From Candidatus Korobacter versatilis (GTDB taxonomy: Bacteria; Acidobacteriota; Terriglobia; Terriglobales; Acidobacteriaceae), in NCBI GenBank assembly GCA_016185395.1, contig JACPNR010000011.1:124001-188000 (forward strand): a stretch of 64,000 nt of DNA, in the 5' to 3' direction. The notes under the pieces were generated by a model, which saw only the letters and a list, made by a program, of their open reading frames with translations, ran no database searches and was not told where the DNA came from. The position numbers and the translations under genes were made by a program. Each line of letters opens with the position of its first letter. The first letter of the stretch is position 1. Below are positions 6,951 through 46,086 of the stretch, piece by piece.

Positions 6951-6994
6951 CGCTGCGTAGCGCAGCGCGTCAATGTTCCGAGCCGCAAAGCGGC
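6951..6994 (+). promoter_or_regulatory. two hairpins just before the adhesin ribosome site
   Basis: CGCTGCG-tag-CGCAGCG (6951-6967) is a perfect 7-bp stem, and GCCGC-aaa-GCGGC (6982-6994) a 5-bp stem directly before the ACGAGGG ribosome site and the ATG at 7009. The rest of 6610-6950 shows no gene. The hairpins could modulate translation; this is inference. Confidence 0.4.
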
Positions 6995-7008
6995 ACGAGG
7001 GTATAGAT

Positions 7009-10000
7009 ATGAAGCAGGCGAACCTGAAGATCTCCAATTGCTCACTTCGCACGTTCACGCTAATCGCAATCGTGGGTCTTCTGCTCATGGCCGCGCCCTC
7101 GGCGCAAGCGCAGTTCCTCTGCACCAACTTCAACACCGGCACCGCCGATGGCGCGACCGCCGGCACCGCGACGAGCACCGCGTGCGGAACGAACGCAACC
7201 GCGGGCGCATTCGCCGGCACAATGGCTATCGGTAATGCCTCGACGGCGAACGCCACTGGTGCCACCGCTGTCGGCACTACCTCGACAGCGTCCGGCACTT
7301 CGTCCACCGCCGTCGGTGCTTCCAGCACGGCGAGCGGCTCCAACACTGCGGTCTTCGGTAATGCCGCGTCGGCGACCTTGGCCAACGGTACGGCGGTTGG
7401 CGCGGGCGCGCTCGCTTCGGGCGCCAATGCCACCGCCCTCGGCCAGGGCACGACGGCCAACGCCTCAAGCGCCACCGCAATCGGGCAGGGAGCCACCGCA
7501 AGCGGCGGCGGCGCGACCGCCATCGGCCAGGGCACGGTAGCCAGTGCGGCTAACACCGTCGCCATCGGCAACAACTTGACCGCAGCGTCGGCCGCCGGTG
7601 CGGTGGCCGTCGGCTCGGGCGCGCAGGCCACCCAGGGCAACGCGGCCGCCTACGGCTTCAATGCCATCTCCAGCGGCATCGGTTCGACCTCTGTCGGCGC
7701 GAACTCGCTCGCCAACGCCACCAATGCGTCGGCCTACGGCCAGAGCGCGACGGCCAGCGGCGTCAGCTCGACTGCCCTCGGCAACGGTGCCACTGCGAAC
7801 TCGTTGAATGCCACCGCCACCGGCGCCAGTTCGACCGCCAGCAACAGCTTTGCCTCTGCCTACGGCGTCAGCTCGACAGCCAGCGGGAACGCTTCGACGG
7901 CGATTGGAGACGCGGCCACGGCGAGCGGTTCGAGTTCCACTGCCGTCGGCGTCAGCTCGCTCGCCAACCAGCAAAATGCGACCGCGCTCGGGGTGGGGGC
8001 TCAGGCGACCAACTCCTTCTCCACGGCCACCGGCGCCAACGCGATTGCCAGCGGACTCGAGTCGACGGCGACGGGCGACGCGGCCACGGCGAGCGGGGAC
8101 TTTTCCACCGCCACCGGCGTCCTTTCGCTCGCCAGCGGCAATATTTCTTCGGCCTACGGCCAGCAATCTACGGCGAGCGGCACCCAGTCGTCGGCGTACG
8201 GCTTCAATTCGTTCGCCAGCGGGACCAACTCCACCGCCCTGGGCAACAGTTCGTTGGCGAGCGGAGCCAGCTCCACCGCCACCGGCGACAATTCCGAAGC
8301 CAGCGGGCTCAACTCCACCGCCAGCGGCTTCAACTCACTCGCCTCGGGCACCAGCTCTTCGGCGGTGGGCGACAGCGCGACCGCCAGCAACACCAACGCC
8401 TCCGCCTTCGGTGTGGGCGCGACGGCGAGCGGATTAAATTCCACCGCGACCGGCGACTTCTCGACGGCCAGCGGCAACTTCTCCACCGCCAGCGGCTCCG
8501 GTTCGACGGCCAGCAACCTCGCGGCCACCGCGACCGGCGAGGGCTCGACGGCGAGTGGCATATTCTCCACCGCGACCGGCGCGGTTTCGACCGCGAGCGG
8601 CGACTTTGCGACGGCTTCCGGGAACTCCGCCACGGCCAGCGGAACCAGCTCCTCCGCCTATGGCGATAACTCGAACGCCGTCAACACCAACGCTTCGGCG
8701 TATGGCGCGGGCTCTAGCGCCAGCGGCACGAACTCGACCGCTCTCGGCGTTTTAGCGAGCGCCACGGGTGCGAGTGACACGGCCGTAGGCGACACGGCAA
8801 CGGCGAGCGGCGGCAACTCCTCGGCGTTCGGCGTGAACTCCGCAGCTTCGGGCGCGAGCTCCTTGGCGGCCGGTGACACCGCATCCGCGGGAGGGCAAAG
8901 CTCGATAGCGGTGGGTAATGGAGCCGACGCGGTCAACGCCTTTGATACGGCGATCGGATTCCAAGCGACCGCTAACGGCGGACAATCCTACGCGATCGGA
9001 AACGTGGCCAGCGCCTCCGGCTTCAACTCCACGGCGATCGGCACGATCTCGTCCGCAAGTGGCACGAACGCAAACGCGTTCGGCGTTTCGGCTTCGGCGT
9101 TGGGATTAGATTCCACCGCCATCGGGACATTATCCTCGGCGACCGGCACCAACGACGTCGCCATGGGCACCTCGTCGGCGGCTTCGGGCGGGAACTCGAC
9201 CGCTATCGGCAACAGCACGATCGCTTCGGGCGCCAGCTCTTCGGCGGTGGGCGACAACGCGACCGCCAGCAACACCAACGCTTCGGCGTTCGGCGTGGGC
9301 TCAACCGCGTCGGGAGTGAACTCCACCGCGGTCGGCAACGCGGCGACCGCCTCGGGCGACAGCTCCATCGCGATCGGCGATACCGCCACGGCCTCGGGCG
9401 GCGCCAACACGGCGTTAGGTCTGAACGCGACGGCCTCGGGCGCCGGCAGCAACAACAGCGCCTACGGCAACGGATCGAACGCTTCGGGCGATGGCAGCAA
9501 CAACAGCGCGAGCGGCGCGTCCTCGTTCGTCACCGGCGACGGCAGCAACAACCTGGCAAACGGCGCCTTCGCGTCCGCCTCGGGCGACAGCAGCAACAAC
9601 ACCGCCATCGGCAACGGCGCGAATGCGGACTCCGCCGGCGGCACCAACAGCAACAACGTCGCCATCGGTACCGGTTCCAACTCGAGCGGCGACAACAGCC
9701 GCAACGTCGCGATCGGCAATAACGCGAGCGCAGACGCCAACGGCGGCACGAACGCCGACAACGTCGCGTTTGGGAGCAGCTCCTTTGCCAGCGGTGCCGT
9801 GGCCGACAACTACGCCTTCGGGCGTAACTCCAGCTCGACCGGCGACGGCAGCGCCAACACCGCCTTCGGCACCCTGGCGAACGTTACCGGCACGGGTAGC
9901 AACAACAGCGCCTTCGGCACCGTCGCGAGCGCTTCGGGCAATGCCAGCAGCAACAGCGCGAGCGGCACGAACTCTTCGGCCACGGGCGACAGCAGCCGCA

Positions 10001-13000
10001 ACATCGCCTTCGGCGCGAACTCGAGCTCGAGCGGCAACAGCAGCTTGAACGCGGCGATCGGCGATGGTGCGAGCGCGACCGGCGACAGCAGCACCAACCT
10101 GGCCATCGGCGCGAATTCGAGCGTCGACTCGAACGGCGGCAGCTCCACCAACACCGCTTTCGGGACCAACTCCAGCGCGACCGGCGCCACCAGCACCAAC
10201 ACCGCGATGGGCACCGGCGCCAGCGTGAGTGGTGACAACAGCACCAACAGCGCGACCGGTAACGGCGCGACCGCCTCGGGCAGCGGCAGCTCCAACAGCA
10301 CCGTCGGCGACAACTCGACCGTCTCCGGCGACGGCAGCAATAACAACAACAGCGGCGCGAGCTCGACCGTTGCCGGCGACGGCAGCAGCAATACGAATAG
10401 TGGCGCATTCTCGAACGTTGGCGGCGACGGCAGCGGCAACGCCAACAGCGGCGCTTTCTCGAACGTTTCCGGCGCCGGCAGCAACAACGCCAACGCCGGC
10501 TGGGGCTCGAACGTCTCGGGCGATGGCAGCAACAACACCAACACCGGCTGGGGTTCGAGCGTCTCTGGCGATGGCAGCAACAACACCAACACCGGCTGGG
10601 GTTCGAGCGTCTCTGGCGATGGCAGCAACAACACCAACACCGGCTGGGGTTCGGGCGTCTCCGGTACGGGCAGCCGCAACAGCAACAGCGGTTCTGGATC
10701 TAGCGTATCGGGCGACAACAGCACTAACAGCAACAGCGGCTCCAGCTCCAACGTTTCGGGGGCCGGCAGTACCAACAGCAACAGCGGTTCTGGATCCAGC
10801 GTATCGGGCGACGGCAGCACTAACAGCAACAGCGGCGCGAATGCGAACGTTTCGGGCGACAACAGCACCAACAGCAACAGCGGCGCGAACGGGAACGTCT
10901 CGGGCGCCGGCAGCACGAACAGCAACAGCGGCCAGAACGCCAGCGTTTCCGGCGATGGCAGCACCAACAGCAACAGCGGCCGGAACGCCAACGTCAGCGG
11001 CCTGGCCAGCAACAACAGCAACAGTGGCGCCGATGCGACCGTTTCTGGCGACAACAGCACCAACAGCAACAGCGGCCAGAGTGCGACCGTGTCGGGCACC
11101 GGCAGCACCAACAGCAACAGCGGCCAGAACGGGGTCGTTTCCGGCGATGGCAGCGTCAACAGCAATAGCGGCCAGAGCGGCGTCGTGTCGGGCGCCGGCA
11201 GCGTCAACAGCAACAGCGGCCAGGGCGGGAACGTGTCGGGCGACGGCAGCGTCAACAGCAATAGCGGCCAAGGCGGGGTCGTGTCCGGCGCCGGCAGCGT
11301 CAACAGCAATAGCGGCCAGAACGGGAGCGTTTCCGGCGCCGGCAGCGTCAACAGCAATAGCGGCCAGGGCGCGATCGTTTCCGGCGATGGCAGCACCAAC
11401 AGCAACAGCGGCCAGAACGCCAACGTCAGCGGCTTGACCAGCAACAACAGCAACAGCGGCGCGAACTCGACCGTGTCGGGTGACAGCAGCACCAACAGCA
11501 ACAGCGGCACGAATTCGAACGTCTCGGGCGCGGGCAGCAACAACAGCTCGAGCGGATCCTTCTCCAACGTCTCCGGCGACGGCAGCTCCAACAACGCGTA
11601 CGGATCCTTCTCGAATGTTTCCGGCGACGGCAGCAACAACTCGGCCGGCTACGGCGCGACGGTCTCGGGCGACGGCAGCAGCAACAACGCGAACGGTCTG
11701 AACTCGACCGCCGCGGGCGATGGCAGCTCCAACTTCGCCAGCGGCAACGGCGCGACCGCGACCGGTGACGGCAGCTTCAACTCGGCTTCCGGCTTCGGCG
11801 CTTCCGCGGTCGGCGACAACGCTAACCAGCTCGCCATCGGCACCGGCGCGCACGCGAACGGCGACAACAGCAGCAGCATCGCCATCGGCAACAGCGCCAA
11901 CGCCGACGGTGACGCCAACAACATCGCCACCGGCACCAACGCCAACGCGAGCGGCAACTCCAACAACATCGCCACCGGCTTCAACTCCAACTCCTCGGGC
12001 GACGGCAGCGACAACATCGCGACCGGCACGGGCGCGAACGCGACGGGTGACGGGAGCCAGAACATCGCCACCGGCGCGAACTCCTTCGCCGCGGGCGACA
12101 ACAGCGTGAACAGCGCCACCGGCGTGAACTCCGACGCCTCGGGCGCGAACAGCGCGAACAACGCGACCGGCGCCGGCGCCAGTTCGTTCGGTGACAACAG
12201 CGCCAACAGCGCGACGGGCGCGAGTGCGGACGCCAGCGGCGCCGGCAGCTTGAACACCGCGAATGGCGCGTTGAGCAACGCTTCCGGTGACGGCAGCGCG
12301 AACAGCGCCACGGGCGCGTTCTCCAACGCTTCCGGCGCAGGCAGCAGCAACTTCGCCGGCGGCGGGGGCAACGCGTCAGGTGATGGCAGCGCCAACGTCG
12401 CCATCGGTCAGAACGCCGACGCCAGCGGCGCGGGCACGGCCAACACCGCGGTCGGCGCCAACTCGATCGCCACCGGCGTGAACGCTTCTGCCTTCGGCAG
12501 CAGCGCCATCGCGACGGGCGATAACTCTTCGGCCGTGGGCAGCGGCTCGCAGGCGACGGGAACGGGTTCTTCCGCCTTCGGCCAGAACTCGCTCGCGAAC
12601 AACACCAATTCGTCGGCCTTCGGCACCGGCTCCACCGCGTCGGGCACCAGCTCCTCCGCCTTCGGTAACGGTTCCACGGCGAGCGGCAGCAGCTCTTCCG
12701 CGTTCGGTTCCGGTTCGACCGCCAACAACTCCAGCTCTTCCGCCTTCGGTACCGGTTCGCAGGCCACGGGCAGCAGCTCCTCCGCGTTCGGTTCCGGCGC
12801 GGTGGCGAGCGGCAGCAGCTCTTCGGCTTACGGCGCGGGAGCCTCGGCAACGGGCGCGAACTCCACCGCGTTCGGCGCCGGCTCCTCGGCCAACTCGGCC
12901 TCCTCGACCGCCTTCGGTCAGGGCGCATCGGCGAACTTCGCCAACTCGGCGGCGTTCGGCGCGGGCGCCACGGCGACGGCGGCGAACCAGCAGGTGTTCG

Positions 13001-13401
13001 GCACCAACACCAACACTTACACCATGCCGGGCATCAACAGCGCGGCCAGCATCGCGGCGCAGACCGGACCGGTGAACCTGGTCACGGCAGACGCGAACGG
13101 CAACCTGGCGGCACGTCCGCTTGCCATCGTCGGCTTCGTCACCTTCCCGGACCTGTACAAGGTGCAGAGCCAGGCGTTCGATGGCATCGCGACCGCGTTC
13201 GCCATGGCGGGCACGCCTTGGGTGGGCGAGAACGAGAAGGTCGCCTTCTCCGTCAACTGGGGCTACTTTGAAGGCCACAACGGCTTCGCCGCTGCGGGCG
13301 CCGTCAAAGTGCACAAGCACGTGCAGTTCAACGGAGCGTTCGGTATCGCCAACCGCGAAGGCATCCCGGGTGGCCGCATCGGATTGCGCCTGGCGTGGTA
13401 G
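7009..13401 (+). CDS. YadA-type trimeric autotransporter adhesin, 2130 aa
   Basis: Very long surface adhesin of the trimeric autotransporter (type Vc) family. I place the start at 7009 because MKQANLK opens a classic signal peptide ending SAQAQ; an upstream ATG at 6973 would add 12 residues. Nearly the whole passenger is YadA-head repeat: 14-residue units such as GQGATASGGGATAI in the first ~810 and last ~180 passenger residues, and 16-residue Asn/Ser-rich units such as SGDGSTNSNSGQNANV in between. A short neck (NTYTMPGINSAAS) leads straight into the YadA membrane anchor: about 70 residues, four beta-strands (KVAFSVNWGYFEGHNGFAA, AVKVHKHVQFNGAFGI, ending GRIGLRLAW). No coiled-coil stalk is apparent. 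Trimer, outer membrane, binding target unknown. Confidence 0.93.
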   Translation: MKQANLKISNCSLRTFTLIAIVGLLLMAAPSAQAQFLCTNFNTGTADGATAGTATSTACGTNATAGAFAGTMAIGNASTANATGATAVGTTSTASGTSSTAVGASSTASGSNTAVFGNAASATLANGTAVGAGALASGANATALGQGTTANASSATAIGQGATASGGGATAIGQGTVASAANTVAIGNNLTAASAAGAVAVGSGAQATQGNAAAYGFNAISSGIGSTSVGANSLANATNASAYGQSATASGVSSTALGNGATANSLNATATGASSTASNSFASAYGVSSTASGNASTAIGDAATASGSSSTAVGVSSLANQQNATALGVGAQATNSFSTATGANAIASGLESTATGDAATASGDFSTATGVLSLASGNISSAYGQQSTASGTQSSAYGFNSFASGTNSTALGNSSLASGASSTATGDNSEASGLNSTASGFNSLASGTSSSAVGDSATASNTNASAFGVGATASGLNSTATGDFSTASGNFSTASGSGSTASNLAATATGEGSTASGIFSTATGAVSTASGDFATASGNSATASGTSSSAYGDNSNAVNTNASAYGAGSSASGTNSTALGVLASATGASDTAVGDTATASGGNSSAFGVNSAASGASSLAAGDTASAGGQSSIAVGNGADAVNAFDTAIGFQATANGGQSYAIGNVASASGFNSTAIGTISSASGTNANAFGVSASALGLDSTAIGTLSSATGTNDVAMGTSSAASGGNSTAIGNSTIASGASSSAVGDNATASNTNASAFGVGSTASGVNSTAVGNAATASGDSSIAIGDTATASGGANTALGLNATASGAGSNNSAYGNGSNASGDGSNNSASGASSFVTGDGSNNLANGAFASASGDSSNNTAIGNGANADSAGGTNSNNVAIGTGSNSSGDNSRNVAIGNNASADANGGTNADNVAFGSSSFASGAVADNYAFGRNSSSTGDGSANTAFGTLANVTGTGSNNSAFGTVASASGNASSNSASGTNSSATGDSSRNIAFGANSSSSGNSSLNAAIGDGASATGDSSTNLAIGANSSVDSNGGSSTNTAFGTNSSATGATSTNTAMGTGASVSGDNSTNSATGNGATASGSGSSNSTVGDNSTVSGDGSNNNNSGASSTVAGDGSSNTNSGAFSNVGGDGSGNANSGAFSNVSGAGSNNANAGWGSNVSGDGSNNTNTGWGSSVSGDGSNNTNTGWGSSVSGDGSNNTNTGWGSGVSGTGSRNSNSGSGSSVSGDNSTNSNSGSSSNVSGAGSTNSNSGSGSSVSGDGSTNSNSGANANVSGDNSTNSNSGANGNVSGAGSTNSNSGQNASVSGDGSTNSNSGRNANVSGLASNNSNSGADATVSGDNSTNSNSGQSATVSGTGSTNSNSGQNGVVSGDGSVNSNSGQSGVVSGAGSVNSNSGQGGNVSGDGSVNSNSGQGGVVSGAGSVNSNSGQNGSVSGAGSVNSNSGQGAIVSGDGSTNSNSGQNANVSGLTSNNSNSGANSTVSGDSSTNSNSGTNSNVSGAGSNNSSSGSFSNVSGDGSSNNAYGSFSNVSGDGSNNSAGYGATVSGDGSSNNANGLNSTAAGDGSSNFASGNGATATGDGSFNSASGFGASAVGDNANQLAIGTGAHANGDNSSSIAIGNSANADGDANNIATGTNANASGNSNNIATGFNSNSSGDGSDNIATGTGANATGDGSQNIATGANSFAAGDNSVNSATGVNSDASGANSANNATGAGASSFGDNSANSATGASADASGAGSLNTANGALSNASGDGSANSATGAFSNASGAGSSNFAGGGGNASGDGSANVAIGQNADASGAGTANTAVGANSIATGVNASAFGSSAIATGDNSSAVGSGSQATGTGSSAFGQNSLANNTNSSAFGTGSTASGTSSSAFGNGSTASGSSSSAFGSGSTANNSSSSAFGTGSQATGSSSSAFGSGAVASGSSSSAYGAGASATGANSTAFGAGSSANSASSTAFGQGASANFANSAAFGAGATATAANQQVFGTNTNTYTMPGINSAASIAAQTGPVNLVTADANGNLAARPLAIVGFVTFPDLYKVQSQAFDGIATAFAMAGTPWVGENEKVAFSVNWGYFEGHNGFAAAGAVKVHKHVQFNGAFGIANREGIPGGRIGLRLAW
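9439..12440 (+). repeat. internal 48-nt (16-residue) coding repeats of the adhesin
   Basis: In this part of the adhesin the head repeat period is 16 residues (48 nt), sometimes 18, rather than 14. The block 10320-11660 is the most regular and is dominated by Gly, Ser, Asn and one Val per unit. Boundaries are approximate because the period changes gradually at both sides. Confidence 0.8.
10546..10641 (+). repeat. two identical 48-bp units
   Basis: Units 10546-10593 and 10594-10641 are identical base for base and encode GWGSSVSGDGSNNTNT twice; the units before and after differ by only a few bases. This points to recent slippage or unequal recombination. Confidence 0.85.
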
Positions 13402-14138: not shown

Positions 14139-15479
14139 GACGCCAACGACCGTCTCGCGACCGACGCCTACGACGCCAACGGCAACACCACCGTCAACGC
14201 GTCCATCGGGAACACGTATGACTTCGAGAACCACCTGGTGCAGCGCGGCTTCATCTCGATCGTTTACGACGGCGACGGCAACCGCGTGCAGAAGACCGCC
14301 GGCGGCGTGACGACGAAGTTCCTGGTGTCGGAGATAAACCCCACTGGGTATGTGCAGGTGGTCGACGAGCTGGTTGGCGGTTTGGTGCAGCGCCGCTACA
14401 CCTAGGGTCTGGATCTACTGAGTGAGACGCAGAAAATCTCGGGTACGTTCCAGACCAGCTTCTACTCGTATGACGGCCACGGCTCGGTGCGGCAGCTCAC
14501 CAACACCGCCGGCGCGATCACCGACACCTACGCCTACGACGCCTTCGGAAACCTGATCGAGCAGACCGGAACCACTCCGAACCTCTATCTCTACGCGGGC
14601 GAGCAGTTCGATCCGGATCTCGGGCTCTACTACAACCGCGCGCGATACCTCGACGTACGGAACGGCCGGTTCTGGGGAATGGATATCCTCGAAGGAGATC
14701 CTCAAGCTCCGATCTCGCTCCATCGTTACTTGTACGCTGGTGACAATCCGGCGAATGCGACCGATCCTACCGGCAAGGAAATTGAGGAGACAATAACGGC
14801 CGCCACCGAATTAGGCCTGATTGGGACGGCGCTGGGAGCATCGATTTCGGCGGGCATTGCGATTACATCAGGGATTGGCTTCTTGGACAATATTCCGCGA
14901 GACGCTTTCCGCAAACCGCCCGACGGCAAGGTCATCGGCTTCCAAACCGGCTGGGCACCCAGTGGAGCATTGTCCAAGTCGAATAACCCGTTCCTAGTCG
15001 GCCTTGCTCTGGGGCTTCAATTCTCCGCTGCGATCGGGGGCGTCGACTTGGTGTGGAAGAACGGATCTGACTCGGCGTGGCTCTATGGCTTCGCAGGTGC
15101 CACCTCGGGTATCAATGTGTCTGCGAAAGGAAACCCGTTAACCAATGGAACGAGCTCGCCATACGACTTGTTTGGCGTATTGGGTAACTCAGCGGCGTAT
15201 AGCGGATACGTATGGAACCTTGAGAACATAACTGACTACACGGACACTTTTTACTGTGTGTCTGTAACTCCACGAATCCGAGCGGCTTTCCCCAACGCCC
15301 CCTTCCAAGTGGGCGGAACGGTCTGCACGGGCGAAAAGGCGCCTGGAAAGGAAGCTACCTATACGTACACGACGGCGGCTTCTCCGATTTCAAAGGACGG
15401 CGGAACCGCCCTTCAGTTCGGAATAACCCACTACTGGTATGTTGGGACAATCGACTTAACTGGATCAGGAAAGCCATAA
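14139..15479 (+). pseudogene. RHS-repeat gene remnant with intact C-terminal core and tip
   Basis: Reading frame of an RHS/YD-repeat protein without its N-terminal part. In frame from 14139, YD-type sequence runs ([23 protein letters not shown]) to RRYT at 14402, where TAG replaces the tyrosine codon expected in the usual YTYGLDLL signature, and then continues as GLDLLSETQ. After the stop, an ATG-less restart is possible at 14487 (330 aa): RHS core with [18 protein letters not shown]-like signature (given in part) up to the DPTGKE boundary, then a 238-residue tip. The tip has a hydrophobic Gly/Ala/Ile segment followed by beta-rich sequence and no nuclease or ADP-ribosyl motif I recognise. Base composition drops in the tip. 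Frame is preceded immediately by TAG, so the front is lost. Confidence 0.85.
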
Positions 15480-15483
15480 GACG

Positions 15484-15675
15484 ATGATTGGTTCCTCGGC
15501 AGTTGCAAAGGAAGCGGCCATTCTTTTGGCCATGGCAGTCGTATTCATTGGGATCCTCGTCTACAAAGGCAGACCACAGGACCGATGGAAGCGTGCTTTC
15601 GCTGCGGCGATCTTCGGCTTCTTGCTGGTTGCCGATGGTTCCATCCTGTATCGACAATTCTCCGCACTCGCTTGA
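15484..15675 (+). CDS. small membrane protein next to the RHS tip; possible immunity protein
   Basis: A 63-residue ORF four bases after the RHS stop, with AGGAAAG upstream of its ATG. It is predicted to span the membrane twice (AAILLAMAVVFIGILVY and RAFAAAIFGFLLVADGSIL) with a basic loop between. Its TGA stop is the first three bases of the IS element's left end, so the natural C-terminus may have been cut off by the insertion; without the insertion the frame would end three codons after the junction. Position directly behind a variable RHS tip is where immunity genes of polymorphic toxins sit; that role is inference. Confidence 0.55.
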   Translation: MIGSSAVAKEAAILLAMAVVFIGILVYKGRPQDRWKRAFAAAIFGFLLVADGSILYRQFSALA

Positions 15676-35090: not shown

Positions 35091-37610
35091 CTACGGCAGC
35101 TTCGGCGCGACCTCGAGGTTCCGGTTACACGTCCCCGCATTCGGGTCCGCCAGCACCGTCGTCCAGTTCGGATCGCTCTGATGCGCCGTGTTCAAATCGT
35201 TGGCAAGGGCCCCGTTGAACCATGGCTGGTCGGGCAGTGCCGGCGGCGTGAGCCAGCTCGGGTTATTGAAGTCGAAGAACTCCATCATGTCATCCGCAGC
35301 GTAGAAGCGGTCGCGTCCGTTGGGCAGCGGCGGCAGGTCGAAGCGGGCCTCGATGAACGCCAGGATGGCGGTGTGCTCGCGCGGGGTGTGCGACACGTAG
35401 TTCTTCTTCACCCACGGCGAGACGACCACGAACGGGATGCGGAATCCGCTCTGCGTGAAGGTGTAGGGCAACGCCTCGGGCGCTGGGCCCTGCGTAAGGT
35501 CGCCGGACTTGAAGATGGGGGCGATGCCATCCGGATCGGGCACGGTGACCGGCGGCACGTGGTCGTAGAATCCGCCCGCTTCGTCGTAGGTCAGGATCAA
35601 GGCGCTCGACTTCCACGCCGCGCTCTTCATCAGCGCGTCCAGGATCTTCTTGGTGTTGTTCGCGCCTGGCTGGACGCCATATTTGTTGCTCGGGTGCTCG
35701 TTGTAGCCGACCGTGAGCACGTCATACTTGTCGGCTGGGTCCTGCTCGATGAACACCACTGGCGCGAGCAAGCTGTCGGCGTTCGGGTCCGCGAGGATGG
35801 TGTACAGCTCCGCGATGTTGCGCACGCGGCCCACGGTGAGCTTCGCATTCGCGTCCGTGCTGGCCGGATCGGTGCCGCGCGTCCACACGTCGTAGTCCGC
35901 CAGGTTCACCGCGCCGTTCTGGTAGTAGTACTTCCATTTCAGGTTGTGCTGCGTCATCCACTCGAAGAAGGTCAGCTGCTGCCAGCGCTTGTTGGGAAGC
36001 TGCGCCTGCAACTCTTCATCCGGACGGATGTGCCCGAAGGACGTCCCGGCGAACAGGTACATCCGGTTCGGCACCGTCGGGCCCATCACCGAACCGAACA
36101 TCCGGTCGCTGGTGGCGAATTGCGTCGCCAGTTCGTAGTAGTACGGCAACTCCCGTTCGTCGTAGTAACCGAGCGACCGCGTGTAACGCGGGTCGCGCCC
36201 TTGCGTGTACTGCGCCTGCGAATCGCTGTTCTGCCGCACCCAGAAATCCATCGCCCACGGTCCGCCGGACTTGCGGTGCGCGAAGAAGTGGCTCTCGTTC
36301 CATCCCGGGCTGGCAACGTCCACGCACACCGTCGGCAAGTGGAACGGATGGTAATTCGCACCGTCCACGTCGGTGAGCACCGTGCTCAGGTCCTGGCCAT
36401 CGATGTCGGTCGCCGCCAATCCCTGCGTGCGCGCGCGATAGTCGCCGAGGCGCCCGAAGTAGTGGTCGAATGAGCGGTTCTCCTGCACGTAATAGAGGAT
36501 GTGCTTGATCTTGTCTTTGAACCCGCCCGCCGCGACCACTTCTACCGTCGCTGACGCTGTCTTGGTCGCGCTCGACGCATCCGTCGCCGTCGCCGTGTAG
36601 GTCGTGGTCACAGGCGGTGTGACCTGCGCGCTCCCGCTCAGTCCGCTGCACGCGCCGCAATTGGAGATACTCACGCTGGTCGCGTTCTGCGAATCCCAAA
36701 TCAGCGTCGCCGTCTGTCCCGCGGAAACCGTCGTCGGGTCCGCGCTCAGCGAGACGCCTAGTTGCCCCGCCGCAGCCGCCGTGATGGTGACGCTCGAGGT
36801 CGCCGTTCCGCCCGCTCCCGTCGCGGTCGCGGTGTAGGTGGTCGTTGCGCCGGGCGTGACGCTCTGCGTCCCGCTCGGCGCCGTCACGCTGCCCACCCCC
36901 TGATCGATGGTGATCGTGTCGGCGTGCTCGCTCGTCCAGGAAAGCGTGGCGCTATCGCCCGGCAGGATCGAGCTCTTGTCCGCGCTCAGCGTGATGCTCG
37001 GCGGCACCTGGTTCACCGTGATGGTCACCGCAGACTGCACGCTGCCCAGCGAGTTCGTCGCCGTGAAGGTGTACGTCGTGGTCGCGCTCGGCGAGACGGT
37101 CACGTTGCCGCTCAGCGGGAAGCGGTCCGCGCCTTCGATCTCGATGTCGGGAGAAACGCTCACCGTGTCCGCGTTCGTGCTGTTCCAGCTCAGCGTCGCG
37201 AGGTCGCCGGCCGTCACTGTGGTCTTGTCCGCAGTCGCCGCGATGGTCGCGGGAGAGACAGGAGTGCTCACCGTCACGCTCGCGCTCATGCTCGCGGAAC
37301 CGCGGCTGTTCGTGGCGGTCGCGGTGTAGGTGGTGTTCTGCGCCGGCGTCACGTTCATCGAGCCGCTGAGCGCCACGCGCCCAATGGCGTTGTCGATGGT
37401 GACGCTGTCCGCGTCTTGCGACGTCCACGTCAGCACCGCGGTCGCGCCCGGAGCGACCTGCGCCGGCGCCACGGACATCGTCACGCTCGGCGCGTTCTCC
37501 ATCGGCGGCGGCGGGCTGGCAGCTCCACCCGCGCAGCCCGCGGCTGTGATCGCGATGAGCGCAAGGAGAACGCAGAAAAGGAGTCGGGGCCAGAGATTCG
37601 TGGATTTCAC
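35091..37610 (-). CDS. phospholipase C-like phosphoesterase lipoprotein with Ig-like repeats
   Basis: An 839-residue exported enzyme. The lipoprotein-type signal ends ITAAGC. Four tandem Ig-like/PKD-like domains of about 80 residues follow (each with TYTATATN-like strands), roughly residues 30-370. The catalytic phosphoesterase (PF04185) fills the rest: IKHILYYVQENRSFDHYFG, YDEAGGFYDHVPP and VSPWVKKNYVSHT are the signatures of phospholipase C/acid phosphatase of the alkaline-phosphatase fold, binding two metals. GTG 37610 is chosen because it directly precedes the signal peptide; a longer frame (to 37709) would bury it. Likely hydrolyses phospholipids or phosphate esters at the cell surface; substrate not determined. 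Confidence 0.88.
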   Translation of the reverse strand: MKSTNLWPRLLFCVLLALIAITAAGCAGGAASPPPPMENAPSVTMSVAPAQVAPGATAVLTWTSQDADSVTIDNAIGRVALSGSMNVTPAQNTTYTATATNSRGSASMSASVTVSTPVSPATIAATADKTTVTAGDLATLSWNSTNADTVSVSPDIEIEGADRFPLSGNVTVSPSATTTYTFTATNSLGSVQSAVTITVNQVPPSITLSADKSSILPGDSATLSWTSEHADTITIDQGVGSVTAPSGTQSVTPGATTTYTATATGAGGTATSSVTITAAAAGQLGVSLSADPTTVSAGQTATLIWDSQNATSVSISNCGACSGLSGSAQVTPPVTTTYTATATDASSATKTASATVEVVAAGGFKDKIKHILYYVQENRSFDHYFGRLGDYRARTQGLAATDIDGQDLSTVLTDVDGANYHPFHLPTVCVDVASPGWNESHFFAHRKSGGPWAMDFWVRQNSDSQAQYTQGRDPRYTRSLGYYDERELPYYYELATQFATSDRMFGSVMGPTVPNRMYLFAGTSFGHIRPDEELQAQLPNKRWQQLTFFEWMTQHNLKWKYYYQNGAVNLADYDVWTRGTDPASTDANAKLTVGRVRNIAELYTILADPNADSLLAPVVFIEQDPADKYDVLTVGYNEHPSNKYGVQPGANNTKKILDALMKSAAWKSSALILTYDEAGGFYDHVPPVTVPDPDGIAPIFKSGDLTQGPAPEALPYTFTQSGFRIPFVVVSPWVKKNYVSHTPREHTAILAFIEARFDLPPLPNGRDRFYAADDMMEFFDFNNPSWLTPPALPDQPWFNGALANDLNTAHQSDPNWTTVLADPNAGTCNRNLEVAPKLP

Positions 37611-37843
37611 CAGGGTTCGTCCTGCCACAAGAAATGCTTGCCTGCAGTGAGAAGCAGCTACTCTGGCCAGAGTTGGCTCTGGTTTCCCGGCCCGGGGAAA
37701 GGACGCCACGGGTCCCCGGCCCGCTAGAAACCCGGCCGGCAGCGCGGCAGGAAGGGCGGCCCCGGCGTAGAATATTCAGTACACCGCCCGGGGACGCTGC
37801 GCATCCAACTGGTGCGGGGATTCGCTTTCCCTAGGGATAAAAC

Positions 37844-40049: not shown

Positions 40050-40245
40050 AATCCCGGGATACCCCCACCCCTCCTTCGGCCGCACATTTGTCTTCAAAGA
40101 CCTGGCGGGAAAAATCCCGGGAAATCCCGGGCGAATCCCGGGTCTCGGTCACCCCCGCCCCCTCCGGTAGGCCGATCTTTTGTTTCCAGCTACTTAGCGG
40201 GAAAAATCTCGGTCAATCTCGGTCAAATCTCGGTCGCCCGGATCG
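40050..40245. repeat. AATCCCGGG / AATCTCGGTC repeat arrays
   Basis: Two related units. The first has AATCCCGGG at 40050, 40113, 40123 and 40134; the second, 40187-40237, starts CAGCTACTTAG and carries three AATCTCGGTC boxes spaced 10-11 bp. The second recurs inverted at 56456-56507. Part of the 545-bp spacer between the TPR gene and the RHS locus, otherwise free of genes. Confidence 0.8.
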
Positions 40246-40470
40246 AAATCCCGGCGGGCTCGCTCTCAAAGAGCCGCAGCGGGTGGACACACCACGCCTT
40301 ATTCTCAGTATGACAGAGCGGATAGGGCAATCTGGTCAAATATCGCGAAACTCTATTTGTAATGGATGGACAGGCTTAGCGGGAAATCGGGAGAAAGAGG
40401 GACTTGACAGGATTTTTCGTAAGGATTCTGCCTCCCACCCTTTGGTTCGCACAAACCGCTCACCAAAGGA

Positions 40471-40555
40471 TGGGCCACCCTCAGTTAGGGTGGGCCACCC
40501 GCCAGACAAGCAAAACCGGCTTGTGTGGGCCACCCCCTTTTTACCTGGGCCACCC
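40471..40555. repeat. four TGGGCCACCC repeats
   Basis: Direct copies at 40471, 40491, 40526 and 40546, each centred on GGGCCACCC with partly symmetric flanks. No gene. Confidence 0.8.
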
Positions 40556-40569
40556 GCCCGAAGGGGAAA

Positions 40570-40824
40570 TCACTCGGGCGTTCGTCGCGGCTTCAGGTTT
40601 TTGACGAGCACGTGTTCCACGAAGCCGGCAACTACTCCCATCAGCGTGCTTCCAATTACGCCCAAAATCACGATGAACAACCATGCCTCCGTCCCCCACT
40701 CGACACTGGGGGGTTTCTCGCGCCAGAACTGATACGCTTCAAAGGCGGAGACTGGAACTCCGAGGACAAGCGTTGATCTGACAATTCTAAGAATCAGCGG
40801 CTGCTCGTAATAAGACCGTGGCAC
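40570..40824 (-). CDS. small two-helix membrane protein behind the RHS gene; candidate immunity protein
   Basis: An 84-residue protein. An ATG at 40869 would overlap the RHS coding end by 37 bases; I prefer GTG 40824, because TAGGAG, overlapping the RHS stop codon, lies six bases before it. Two membrane segments are evident (LRIVRSTLVLGVPVSAFEAY and LFIVILGVIGSTLMGVVAGF), with a short charged connector and a basic C-terminus. No family recognised. The tight junction with the RHS stop and the glycine-rich hydrophobic tip in front of it fit an immunity protein for a membrane-acting toxin, but this is inference. Confidence 0.6.
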   Translation of the reverse strand: MPRSYYEQPLILRIVRSTLVLGVPVSAFEAYQFWREKPPSVEWGTEAWLFIVILGVIGSTLMGVVAGFVEHVLVKNLKPRRTPE

Positions 40825-40832
40825 AAGAACTC

Positions 40833-43800
40833 CTATCCAGGCGGTTTTGTCGCGGCCTCTAGGTCGCATGCAATCTCGGCTGAATCATAACGAGGCTGAT
40901 AAATGTATTTGTCATATCCCCAGTTCGTGAGGGGTACCGTCACACCGGCACGGATCGCGCCCGCGCTTGCACTGGCAACACCTCCAACGAAACAACCGAC
41001 ACCGGCCCCTGGAATCGCCCCGACACCAAAGAATACTGCCCCACTACTTGCTCCCCAAAAGGTGCCAGCACCGCACCCCCATGCCGCCGAGATTCCGATT
41101 TGAACGAGCACACGCTTCGTCTCCCCGGCTTCAAAGGCAGCCTTCGCGGTGTCAGCTTCAGCCCGCTTTCGCGCAATACACGCCCTTCGCTTCCTCTCCC
41201 TTGCCCCACCGCCGCTCCCACCATCGCCGCCACCTACGACGGCCGGAACAACGACATCGACAAGAGTGAAGCAGCACAGGGCCGGGAAGAAGAAGTCGCC
41301 GTACTGGATGAAGATCAGATCAAGGTGAATCGGCTGAACGCTGTACCCCAGGAGGGCTAGTGCCCCTCCGTAGGCAAAGACAACGGACCCAATGCCGCGT
41401 AGGCACCCAGGGAAGTAACGGCCTACTATGTCGGGATTCTTCATGCAGGGTAGTTGGACATCCAGTCCAAGCGGATCGACAAGGCCAACCGGGTCATTTC
41501 TGACATAAGCATAGCGATTCAACGATTGTGGATTGAAGGCATCTCCTGCCAATGGGTCGGCGGTCAGAAATCTACCCAGCCGCGGGATGTAGGAGCGCGC
41601 ATTGGCATAGTCCAGCGCGCTCTCGCCGTCGCGCTCGTAGGTGGTGAACCTCCACTTGCTCGACCCGGTGTTCTCGTACCACGTCTCGCCGTAGGGAAAG
41701 TGGCCGAAGGTGCGGGTGATGGCGCCGCTGGCGTCGGTCTCAACGCGCGCGGAGAGGCGGTCCATGTGGCGGTAGGTAGGCGTGCCGCTTGAGTTCAGTG
41801 ACGCCAGCAGCGAGTCGCCCGCGTAGATGTACTCCTGCGAGAGTGCTGGCGTCGAGCCAGTGTACTCGGCGAGGACCGTGAAGCCGGAGAAGACGTATGT
41901 GGTGATGGCGGCGCTAACGGTCTTCTTGATGCGCAGGCCGTCGGGGCCGTAGACGTAGGTCGCGGCGCCGGAGTTGTAATTCACCAGGCGGTTCTCGGCG
42001 TCGTAGGCGAACGAGTTCGTGCCGTCCGAGGTCATATTGCCGGCAGCGTCATAAGCGTAGCCGGTGTTGGTGATGCGGTTGGTGGTCGCGCTCACGGTGA
42101 GCTGCGGCTGGGAGGGAGCGGAATAGGGGGAGTTGAGCACGCCGCCGGTGAGAGTCTGCTGCAACATGGTGCCGAAGCGATCGTAACTCCAACCCAGTCC
42201 CCAAGTCCCGTTCGCGCTCTGGTCGCTGGTCGAGGCGGCAATGAGGCGGTGGACGGCATCGTAGCCGTAGTTCTGCGTCTTGGTCGTGTCTTCGGTCCCG
42301 TTCGGCTTCCAGGTGATCTTCTGGATCTGGCCGTTGTTGTTGCTCTGCGGCGAGGCGCTGTAGCAGGTGTCGCCGGAAGTCGAATTGGTGGTGTAGCAGT
42401 AGAGCAGGTTCAGCAGGTCGCTGGAGCCGTTGGCGTAACGGATGGAGGCGATCTGGAGGTGGTCGTTGTAGCCGAAGTAGGCGGAGACGCCGTTGCCGTA
42501 GTTGAACTGGGTGATCTGGCCGGCGGCGGTGTAGTCGGCGGTGGTATCGGGCACGGTGAGGTAGGTGCGCGAGCCGTCGGCGAGCTGCGAGGTGCGGCCG
42601 GTGGCGTCGTAGGTGGTGGTCACGGCGCGCAAGGACGGATAGGTCAGCGTGGTGAGTTGGTCAGCGCTGTTGTAGGCGTAACCGATGGTGTAGGTGTTCG
42701 AGCCGATGGTCTTGGCGGCGGAGATGACGCGGCCGAGCTGGTCGTAGCTGTAGCTATCGGACTCGTTGGAGTTGTCGGCGGTGAGCAGGCGGCCCTTGTT
42801 GTTGGAAGCCGAACTGGTGCCATAGGTGTAGGTGATGCCCGCCGTGGCGGCGACGTTGGGGGCGCCACTGACGTCGTAGGTGATGGTGTAGGGCCGGTTC
42901 ATGGCGTCGTAGGCGTAGTTGGTCTTGGCTCCGCGAGGGTCGGTGCGCAGGAGGGCGGCGCTGAAATCGGTGTAGGTGTACGTCGTTGCCGCGGTGCTCT
43001 CGGCGGGCGTGGCGGAGGTAAGGCGCCCGAGCGAATCGTAGGCGTACGTGCGGGATTGCGGCGTGAGCGAGCCGCGCTTGGCCTGGCTGACGGTCAGCAA
43101 ATCGTTGATCACGTCGTAGGTGTAGGTGGTGATCATCGGCGTGGCGAGCGTGCTGTTGCCGCTCGAGTCGGCGCCGCCCGTGAGGTTGGAGCCAGAGTTG
43201 TAGAGGACGAGCGCAGCGCCAGTGGTGCTGGAGCTGAGCGAGTAGTTCGTAGCGGCGCCAGCGGTCTTGGAAGTGAAGAAGACCGTGCTTCCCGCGGCCG
43301 CCGCTGTGACGCTGGAAGTGCCGTCCAGGTTGAAAGAGTTTGCGAGCAAGATGGCAAACGTGGGGCCATCGGTACAGACGCCGCGGGAGCAGGTCGAGGT
43401 CTTGCTCTTGGTGAGGCCGTTTACGGTGATGCTGACTACGTCTCCCGAGACGCTGCTGCCAGTGATGGTGACGAATCCGGTGCTCGTCATGCCATCGCCA
43501 GAGCCCGGCTCGTCGACCTCAATCAGGCGGCCGAGGGCGTCGGCAAAGCTCCGGCGCTGCTTGCCCACTGGGTCCGTGGAGGTGACGCTGTTGCCGCTGT
43601 AGCTGGTCTGATAGCTGCCGCCGGTGGCCGGCGCCATCGATGTTATCCGGTCGTAATTGTCGTACCCATAGGTCGTGAACACTTCGCTTTCGCCCGGTTT
43701 GCGAGGGTTGCTGCGCTGGGACAGACGGCCGGCGGCGTCATAGGTGCTGCGCGTGATCGAGAACTGGGTGCTGCCGTTGCGGGCCTCCTGTTGGAGAACT

Positions 43801-45872
43801 CGACCGAGGCCGTCAAGAAGAGTGAACGAGACCGCGCTGTTCGCGGCCGACGAGACCGAGACGGAAGGCGAGGCAGAGGCGTCGTCGAATGTGCTTGTCA
43901 CGACGACGCTGTCGGGACGGATCGCGGTTGCGGGACGATCCACGGGGTCGTAGGTGAAATTCGTTGTCTTGCCGTTCTCGTCGGTGCTGCTGAGCGGCAG
44001 GCCGCTGGCGAAGTCGTAGGTCGCGCTGGTGGTGAGCTGCGTGCCAGAGGGGCCGCGAGTGACGGAATCGGGGTAGGCAAATTTGGTGGTGTTGGAATAG
44101 GTCCACTGGATGGTGTTGCAACAGTCGGCATCGGCACTAAGGAGATTGCCTACCGTGTCGTAGTAAAGGTTGCGCACGACGCCGCCCGAGTGGCCCGCGG
44201 CATTGCTGTAACGGGTGATGGTAGTGGGGTTGCCGCGCCAGCTATAGGTGATGCCATGATTGGTGTCGTCGTGTTGGACCACGCCCGCGTTGTTGGTGAG
44301 CGAGGTGGAAGTGTCGTACTGGATTTCGGTGAGCGCGACAGCCGTGCCATTCGGTTTCTGCACGGTGACGGAAACCGCTAGATTCAGGATATGGTTCGAC
44401 GTGTAGCCGCTTGTTCCCAGGTACGTCGTCAAGGTCTTGCGAGCGAGGTTCAAGCCCCAGTCGTACTCGTCGAGCTCAGTGACGTTGCCGTTGCTGTCGT
44501 AAGAATAGATGGCTTGCGCGAGCTGGTTGGAATCGTTGAGGCGCGTGGTGACGTTCCCTATACGAGGGTTGTTGTTCGTGGTTGCGTCGGCAACCCATGC
44601 GTAGGTGGCGGTGCGCAGGGGCGCTCCCGAGGAGCTATGGAACTGAACGGACTGCGTCAGGCCTGCTTTCCAATCGCTGGTCGTGAATAGCGTAGTGACG
44701 GTTTGCGTGCTGCTCGGCGAGGGGTTCTGGATCGTGTAGGTGCTGACAGCGCCACCGCTCTTCACGATGGTATGGGTGTAGACGGCGGTGTTGACGCCAT
44801 CGTAGACGGTCTGGTGCGAGAAGCCAGGGAAGTCGGTCACTGGACTGGTCGCCCAGACTGTGTCATAGCTGACGGAGCTGCGAAGCGTACCGTTGGAACT
44901 GAGTTGCTGGATCTGGTTGACGATACCCCAGTCGCCGTAGAGGAAGTTCACTGCCAGGCTGTTGGCGTAGATGACGCCCGTCAACACGGTCAGGGTCGAA
45001 CCGCTGGCCGGACTGTTGGTAGCGGCGAGCGGCGACGCGAAGTTGTAGTTGAAGGTGTAGTTCGTGTTCCAAGAAAAAACGGCGTAGGTCTTCGATCCCT
45101 GAACGATGCTGGCTAGCGTGCCGGTCAGGGCGCCGGTGGTGTTGTAGTTAAAGGTAATGGTGCGGTTGAGCGTGTCAACGATGGTCGCGATCTCCTGCCC
45201 CTTCGCCCACGTATCGGTGCGATAGGTGACGGTGATGTAGTTGCCGTTGGTGTCGGTGATCTTGGTGGGGCGGAAGAACGTGGTGGACCCCGGAAAAGCG
45301 GCGTACTGCACCTGAGTGCCGTTCTTGTAACGAAGCACCTTGGTCGAGGAGTTCCAATCGATGTAGGAGCTATCGGTCGTGACGCCAGAAGTGAAGCTGC
45401 GCTTCGTGCCATCTCCCTCGTGCAGAACGTATGTGGTGCCGTTCAACTCGATATAGCCGAAGCCGAGTCGGAAGCCATAACCCGGAAAGTCGCGATCAAC
45501 GTTGAAAGTGGCGGAGTTGTTTGCGGTGTCGATCGTCCAGACGCGGCTGTTGTACAAGAGGTTCAGACTCATATCCAGGCCAGCACGTCCGGGTAGGTGG
45601 AGAATCGGGACAACGTAGCTGAAGCTGGCGCTGGGAGGAGTGATGGGGTCGGCTTGAGGGCTCGAACCCTTCGAACCCGGCCGCCACGGGTCATACGGCA
45701 TCCGGAGGGACGAGTCCTTGCGCTCGTTGGGTCGCTGGGAGTTGGCGGTGAAAGTCCCGCTGTACCCGGGGAAGCTCGGGTCGGGCTCACAGTTGGGAGT
45801 GCAGCTGGCGAAGGAAGCTGCGGCGGCGAGAAGGAGCGCGACAACAGCGGCGAAACGCGCACAGCGAGCCAT
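40833..45872 (-). CDS. secreted RHS/YD-repeat protein with variable C-terminal tip
   Basis: A 1679-residue RHS protein. ATG 45872 opens a signal peptide (FAAVVALLLAAAASFASC, possibly lipoprotein) with AGAGG seven bases upstream; the longer frame to 46031 is not needed. About 20 YD-type repeats follow (YDALGRL/YDAMNRP/YDQLGRV style), interrupted at about residues 795-905 by a beta-rich insert (FVTITGSSVSGDVVS ... TNYSLSSST). The core ends with GLRIKKT, YVFSGFTVLAEY, ARSYIPRLGRFLTADPLAG and the DPLGLD boundary. The last ~210 residues are a distinct tip: a hydrophobic part, a Gly-Ser linker with a KRRACIARKRAEAD helix, then a glycine-rich hydrophobic hairpin that might insert into membranes. RHS shells wrap and deliver such tips. 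Confidence 0.9.
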   Translation of the reverse strand: MARCARFAAVVALLLAAAASFASCTPNCEPDPSFPGYSGTFTANSQRPNERKDSSLRMPYDPWRPGSKGSSPQADPITPPSASFSYVVPILHLPGRAGLDMSLNLLYNSRVWTIDTANNSATFNVDRDFPGYGFRLGFGYIELNGTTYVLHEGDGTKRSFTSGVTTDSSYIDWNSSTKVLRYKNGTQVQYAAFPGSTTFFRPTKITDTNGNYITVTYRTDTWAKGQEIATIVDTLNRTITFNYNTTGALTGTLASIVQGSKTYAVFSWNTNYTFNYNFASPLAATNSPASGSTLTVLTGVIYANSLAVNFLYGDWGIVNQIQQLSSNGTLRSSVSYDTVWATSPVTDFPGFSHQTVYDGVNTAVYTHTIVKSGGAVSTYTIQNPSPSSTQTVTTLFTTSDWKAGLTQSVQFHSSSGAPLRTATYAWVADATTNNNPRIGNVTTRLNDSNQLAQAIYSYDSNGNVTELDEYDWGLNLARKTLTTYLGTSGYTSNHILNLAVSVTVQKPNGTAVALTEIQYDTSTSLTNNAGVVQHDDTNHGITYSWRGNPTTITRYSNAAGHSGGVVRNLYYDTVGNLLSADADCCNTIQWTYSNTTKFAYPDSVTRGPSGTQLTTSATYDFASGLPLSSTDENGKTTNFTYDPVDRPATAIRPDSVVVTSTFDDASASPSVSVSSAANSAVSFTLLDGLGRVLQQEARNGSTQFSITRSTYDAAGRLSQRSNPRKPGESEVFTTYGYDNYDRITSMAPATGGSYQTSYSGNSVTSTDPVGKQRRSFADALGRLIEVDEPGSGDGMTSTGFVTITGSSVSGDVVSITVNGLTKSKTSTCSRGVCTDGPTFAILLANSFNLDGTSSVTAAAAGSTVFFTSKTAGAATNYSLSSSTTGAALVLYNSGSNLTGGADSSGNSTLATPMITTYTYDVINDLLTVSQAKRGSLTPQSRTYAYDSLGRLTSATPAESTAATTYTYTDFSAALLRTDPRGAKTNYAYDAMNRPYTITYDVSGAPNVAATAGITYTYGTSSASNNKGRLLTADNSNESDSYSYDQLGRVISAAKTIGSNTYTIGYAYNSADQLTTLTYPSLRAVTTTYDATGRTSQLADGSRTYLTVPDTTADYTAAGQITQFNYGNGVSAYFGYNDHLQIASIRYANGSSDLLNLLYCYTTNSTSGDTCYSASPQSNNNGQIQKITWKPNGTEDTTKTQNYGYDAVHRLIAASTSDQSANGTWGLGWSYDRFGTMLQQTLTGGVLNSPYSAPSQPQLTVSATTNRITNTGYAYDAAGNMTSDGTNSFAYDAENRLVNYNSGAATYVYGPDGLRIKKTVSAAITTYVFSGFTVLAEYTGSTPALSQEYIYAGDSLLASLNSSGTPTYRHMDRLSARVETDASGAITRTFGHFPYGETWYENTGSSKWRFTTYERDGESALDYANARSYIPRLGRFLTADPLAGDAFNPQSLNRYAYVRNDPVGLVDPLGLDVQLPCMKNPDIVGRYFPGCLRGIGSVVFAYGGALALLGYSVQPIHLDLIFIQYGDFFFPALCCFTLVDVVVPAVVGGGDGGSGGGARERKRRACIARKRAEADTAKAAFEAGETKRVLVQIGISAAWGCGAGTFWGASSGAVFFGVGAIPGAGVGCFVGGVASASAGAIRAGVTVPLTNWGYDKYIYQPRYDSAEIACDLEAATKPPG

Positions 45873-46086
45873 ATGCAACCTCTTGACGACGAGATTGTGG
45901 CCGAGACGCTGTGGCGGACAGCGCAGTAAAGTTGGCGGCAGGATAGTCCTCGGGCGGGGAAAGTCAAGCGAGATATTCCGACAAGGCAGCGGTCGGCGCT
46001 CGTAGGTCCCCCGCGCGTCCTTTGACAACATCTCAGGTAGGCACGCTGCGCCTCCCTCCGGTTTTCTTTTCCCCCGCGCTTCTGTC

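Follow-up and report, generated by a model that had tools for sequence, protein, structure and literature searches.

The window, as the whole 64,000-nucleotide stretch of Candidatus Korobacter versatilis DNA analysed here is called, carries a large RHS gene on its minus strand followed by a gene for a small membrane protein, P0002 (Table 1). The RHS reading frame is uninterrupted from 46031 to 40833, over more than 1670 codons. The likelier start is the ATG at residue 54; an AGAGG ribosome site precedes it, and the predicted signal peptide begins there. The protein matches RHS_repeat PF05593 in the Pfam scan (2.5e-27) and Rhs_assc_core TIGR03696 in NCBIfam (2.6e-18). YD repeats and an Rhs-associated core are thus followed by a variable C-terminal tip, the layout of a polymorphic toxin. 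The Pfam scan found no PAAR domain, and the N-terminus consists instead of the predicted signal peptide. Plasmid and viral searches gave no match.

The boundary between core and tip was placed at the end of the Rhs-associated core, DPLGL at residue 1523. In PDB comparisons the match to the Tse5 shell (chain 8cp6) stops at exactly this point, and the Tse5 shell is cleaved right after the leucine corresponding to this end (PMC10684867). The tip is therefore taken to be everything beyond DPLGL. The aspartyl autocleavage motif of Rhs proteins is DPXG X18-19 DPXG (PMC10684867). Here DPLGL coincides with the cleavage point, the upstream DP reads DPLAG, and the aspartates are 27 residues apart versus 23 in the motif.

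Table 1. Coordinates in the window of the RHS loci and their associated features.
Feature	Position	Strand	Basis or remark
RHS polymorphic-toxin gene	40833-45872	-	1679 aa from likely start ATG 45872
RHS open frame as listed	40833-46031	-	1732 aa
Predicted Sec-type signal peptide MARCARFAAVVALLLAAAASFASC	45801-45872	-	read from sequence; lipobox-like end (FAS-C)
Rhs-associated core end, residues 1446-1523, terminating in DPLGL	41463-41696	-	TIGR03696; alignment to PDB chain 8cp6
C-terminal tip, predicted toxin domain	40836-41462	-	residues 1524-1732, 209 aa
First hydrophobic half of tip, residues ~1543-1605, candidate entry/insertion segment	41217-41405	-	hydropathy
Glycine-zipper hairpin, residues 1646-1696	40944-41096	-	part conserved in all tip homologues
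Ribosome-binding site AGGAG	40830-40834	-	sequence; overlaps RHS stop TAG
84-aa two-helix membrane protein P0002, predicted immunity protein	40570-40824	-	GTG start at 40824
Dispersed intergenic repeat	40200-40568	-	begins 2 bp after P0002 stop
Second RHS locus, C-terminal remnant with different tip	14487-15479	+	NCBIfam, sequence
63-aa two-helix membrane gene behind second RHS tip	15484-15675	+	4 nt after remnant

The tip consists of a hydrophobic stretch, a Gly-rich linker, a charged helix, and a glycine zipper, in that order. The first-pass annotation had described a tip of ~210 residues with a Gly/Ala-rich hydrophobic stretch, and this description was borne out, with the quoted stretch SGAVFFGVGAIPGAGVGCF located at 40989-41045. 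Six GxxxGxxxG matches occur in the tip, a count reached in only 1 of 5000 shuffles, and by maximum hydrophobicity it ranks first of 113 RHS tips. An extended GxxxGxxxG in a hydrophobic C-terminal segment, as found here, is what marks glycine-zipper membrane-depolarising toxins. AlphaFold2 models the tip as a helical hairpin with low confidence (pLDDT 51.6). Sequence searches of Pfam, NCBIfam, PADLOC, and PDB returned no match to the tip. It can be called a new family insofar as its sequence matches nothing in Pfam, NCBIfam or PDB, and the earlier suggestion of a new tip family stands after these profile searches. DUF6861, the E492 microcin, PsbZ, and JetD were considered for the tip or its partner and set aside, as these weak matches were compositional or under cut-off.

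The junction between the two genes reads ..gga TAG GAG ttctt GTG.., so that AGGAG (40834-40830) spans the RHS stop. The two hydrophobic segments of P0002 span residues 10-28 and 51-69, and both its ends are predicted to be cytoplasmic because Lys and Arg are concentrated there. The single-sequence AlphaFold2 model is mostly helical (pLDDT 73.5), with helices at residues 10-21, 27-36, and 41-76. The tightly coupled two-helix gene noted in the first reading of the DNA is thus present. P0002 matches no Pfam or NCBIfam family above cut-off, including the two-TM immunity families Imm-CdiI and Imm17. PADLOC and PDB sequence searches likewise gave no usable match to the partner, and a search of the order gave no convincing sequence homologue of P0002.

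A second RHS locus on the plus strand follows the same scheme. Its tip has no sequence relation to that of the first locus, and a two-helix gene lies behind it, in agreement with the earlier remark that both loci share an arrangement with different tips. Upstream of its intact C-terminal frame, the remnant (14238-15479) holds YD-repeat pieces in differing frames. Shortly before this remnant lies a 2142-aa YadA-head-repeat protein with a C-terminal end resembling a trimeric-autotransporter anchor (6973-13401). Elsewhere in the window, a phosphoesterase-family protein (PF04185) carries Ig-like repeats on its N-terminal side (35091-37709).

A profile search of 298 genomes found clear homologues of the tip in six other genomes of the order (G033, G266, G031, G028, G007, G001), and a tip remnant (L067) in G296. 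The alignment of the seven homologues (A2) has invariant residues G40, G44, G48, G52, G63, A64, and G67, the first four being glycines at i, i+4, i+8, and i+12. A profile built from five homologues and omitting the window tip recovers that tip at 29.6 bits (E 6e-8), compared with 12.1 bits for the best of 2000 composition-preserving shuffles, which were run because E-values are soft for Gly-rich sequence. The zipper half is the only part common to the homologues. The upstream half differs between them, the first hydrophobic half showing no conservation, and no stretch of enzyme size follows the zipper. The tip is the end of the RHS protein at locus L060, while at L061 an RHS core lies upstream of it with an N gap between. 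At L063 and L065 another gene or tip precedes it, and the tip forms an orphan cassette. A search of the order with the single tip sequence gave mostly chance Gly-rich matches, L006 and L019 being the only real ones. In 396 genomes of the phylum there was no convincing homologue outside the order; one profile match there, in G381, was an OmpA-like glycine-zipper lipoprotein and was discarded as a chance match.

The tip is linked to a partner in most of these genomes. Four of the six other homologues (L061, L063, L065, L066), as well as the remnant L067, have a two-helix gene directly behind them, and these five partners are related proteins of 74-88 aa. When the 298 genomes were searched with a profile of this partner family (alignment A6), all five confident matches adjoined a tip or tip remnant. 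Two weaker relatives (L229, L230) have no visible tip alongside. At L060 (G033, JAFDVV010000082.1) the gene behind the tip encodes a 90-aa protein that combines a single membrane helix with a CxxC...CxxC zinc-ribbon-like part, and no membrane gene was found behind the tip at L064. The first-pass annotation had named tip homologues lacking a small membrane gene as evidence against its hypothesis, and this objection applies in part, to two of the seven homologues with the window tip included.

P0002 resembles the A6 partners in size and layout. Its score against their profile is not significant (6.9 bits, E 0.5, with several shuffles higher), and reaches 9.3 bits (E 0.09) once L229 and L230 are added, a score that 4 of 2000 shuffles exceed. 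Homology between P0002 and the other partners is plausible by eye and failed the shuffle test. Given these non-significant scores, P0002 is without demonstrable homology to the A6 family.

Small membrane genes also occur behind many other RHS ends in these bacteria. The genome contains seven Rhs cores or RHS 3' ends, and all six readable ends lead into a small gene with 2-4 predicted helices, each behind a different tip. In related genomes, mostly MAGs, a small gene encoding two or more helices lies behind 32 of 111 RHS ends compared with 4 of 197 control genes (29% versus 2%, Fisher p 4e-12), with helix counts taken from our own hydropathy window and the downstream ORF chosen mechanically. 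Genes starting -60 to +80 nt from the RHS end were accepted, and controls were treated by the same procedure. The counts become 24 versus 2 when a ribosome site is required. None of 30 tips followed by genes with two or more helices reached a Pfam cut-off, and tips with such a gene behind them are slightly more hydrophobic and richer in zippers (p about 0.01 each).

This enrichment bears on whether the locus is a product of decay or chance, in which a spurious ORF happens to follow a dead RHS tip. RHS remnants are common in the genome and P0002 has no convincing homologue, which would fit such an origin. It is nevertheless highly improbable given the intact RHS frame, the good ribosome site and its spacing, the excess of membrane genes over controls, and the conservation of the zipper in homologues.

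Among loci with unrelated tips, only 1 of 6304 pairs has related downstream genes, and the small gene is thus not a common RHS component. Related tips (17 pairs, <80% identity) have related downstream genes in only 2 cases, partly because the stretch shared by the tips is often short. Several tips with enzyme motifs also precede exported or membrane proteins. The Tox-HNH-EHHH signature was found in tip L134, which has a different partner. NlpC-like (L092, L100, L167) and metalloprotease-like (L033, L059) motifs were seen by eye in other tips. As L033 and L092 precede membrane genes, the presence of a membrane partner is by itself no proof of a pore-former. In addition, the tips of L040 and L091 end in HPTLGCVRTTDDC, which by eye resembles an L,D-transpeptidase active site, and are followed by related exported proteins. 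Judging from these motifs, the two loci are candidates for RHS toxins that act on peptidoglycan and have periplasmic immunity proteins.

The occurrence of membrane partners behind metalloprotease-like or NlpC-like tips raises a different reading of the toxin-immunity pair, in which the zipper only inserts or translocates, damage comes from another activity of the tip, and the partner acts as an inhibitor anchored in the membrane. A precedent is the T6SS DNase Tde1, which requires a glycine zipper to be translocated (PMC10240207). Such a division of labour is unlikely for the present tip, as the zipper, which sits C-terminally, is its sole conserved part, homologues diverge in the half upstream, and no Pfam domain occurs anywhere in the tip.

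Base composition and gene order point to exchange of tips. GC3 is lower in the tip than in the core at 95 of 113 loci (Wilcoxon p 1e-15), and at the window locus it falls from 0.83 in the core to 0.58 in the tip and 0.64 in P0002. The RHS gene on contig C7 of the same genome has a core end 68% identical to that in the window, followed by complete divergence into an unrelated tip. On the other side of the unit, the repeat that begins just after P0002 has 27 matches in the genome, at about 22 places. Copies begin 9 bp (C7) and 2 bp (C8) after the membrane genes at other RHS loci, and another lies ~370 bp beyond the membrane gene on C2. On C11 a copy is directly adjacent to a C-terminal fragment of an RHS gene. 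At five of the seven RHS loci a copy is found within about 600 bp of the RHS gene or its membrane gene. On C8, C11, and C14, fragments of RHS cores are found next to repeat copies or flanked by them. Homology flanking the tip-partner unit on both sides would allow recombinational exchange, and the repeat is a possible recombination boundary for tip cassettes. A broader generalisation can be offered tentatively: Sec-exported, T6SS-independent RHS proteins in this order may carry a large set of inner-membrane toxins that differ widely in sequence. Each toxin would be paired with a 2-4-helix immunity protein of its own, and the pairs would be swapped as cassettes between the conserved Rhs core upstream and the dispersed repeat, which starts a few bases after the immunity gene.

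This pattern of exchange also weighs against the proposal that the RHS protein is no toxin and instead serves, in anchored form, at the cell surface or in adhesion, its tip keeping it in the membrane and the small gene encoding a membrane chaperone or anchor. The predicted signal peptide with its lipobox-like cysteine and the very hydrophobic tip are compatible with an anchor, as is the lack of a T6SS sheath protein, for VipB had no match in the genome (90% complete). Against this, RHS loci have no small gene in common, with a single related pair among those with unrelated tips. Tips swapped on a conserved core, together with orphan tip-partner cassettes downstream of other RHS genes, fit the turnover of toxin-immunity pairs and not an anchor, which makes this proposal quite unlikely.

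The favoured reading, to which we assign a probability of roughly two in three, is that the locus is an exported polymorphic-toxin cassette in which the glycine-zipper tip depolarises the inner membrane of a target cell and the 84-aa membrane protein protects the producer. Cleavage, delivery, depolarisation, and immunity are steps that we infer by analogy. The RHS protein would be exported, in keeping with its predicted signal peptide and lipobox-like cysteine. The tip would be enclosed by the YD-repeat shell, which probably releases it after DPLGL through the aspartyl-protease activity conserved in Rhs proteins. Once cells are in contact, the 209-aa tip would reach the inner membrane of the neighbour, insert its glycine-zipper helical hairpin, oligomerise, and dissipate the membrane potential. 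P0002, whose translation is coupled to that of the RHS gene, may sit in the inner membrane of the producer and block insertion or assembly. The first-pass annotation had proposed a membrane-active toxin with a membrane immunity protein. The conserved zipper, the linkage of tip and partner, the enrichment of membrane genes, and the analogy to Tse5 and CDI toxins favour that proposal, while homology of P0002 to the other partners could not be sustained.

The system is of a known kind, with a tip family that was previously undescribed. On this reading, the scheme of an ionophore with a two-helix immunity protein, known from CDI, T6SS, and T7SS carriers, would extend to exported RHS proteins of acidobacteria. 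The Acidobacteriota are a dominant and little studied soil phylum, and the survey suggests that membrane partners behind RHS ends are unusually common in those examined here. It also yields a ready list of candidate toxin-immunity pairs. As VipB has no match in the genome, delivery of the RHS toxin to a neighbour would probably proceed without a T6SS.

Among known systems, Tse5 of Pseudomonas aeruginosa is one of the closest to the RHS protein described here. Tse5-CT forms pores and is neutralised by Tsi5, which has two TM regions (PMC9637101). Both systems have an Rhs shell, a tip without an enzyme fold, and an adjacent small two-TM protein, and the core end aligns to the Tse5 cleavage point. 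However, the tips have no detectable similarity, and a predicted signal peptide replaces the PAAR-like N-terminus. The genome here also differs in having no VipB match, and the spacing of the acidic motif in the core is unlike DPXGX19DPXG.

CDI ionophores share only the glycine zipper with one another, and their CdiI proteins are two-helix hairpins of 72-100 aa with both ends cytoplasmic (PMC11630599). The GxxxGxxxG zipper in the toxin and the small two-helix partner, with both ends predicted to be cytoplasmic, are likewise found here. The carrier differs, being CdiA with CdiB in CDI and RHS in this locus, and the CDI ionophores form a five-helix bundle. Small two-TM proteins also make up Imm-CdiI and Imm17, immunity families of polymorphic toxin loci (PMC3482391). 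P0002 is like them in size and two-TM layout but lies below every Pfam cut-off.

EsxX, a T7SS LXG protein, has a depolarising C-terminal glycine zipper and is neutralised by the polytopic membrane proteins ExiC and ExiD (PMC12744356). Together with TelE and TspA, it resembles the present system in its C-terminal glycine zipper, polytopic membrane immunity proteins, and orphan immunity genes. EsxX differs in carrier and secretion system and in having an extra soluble cytoplasmic immunity pair. Not a demonstrated member of any of these systems, the tip and its partner most likely work as Tse5/Tsi5, the CDI ionophores, and EsxX do.
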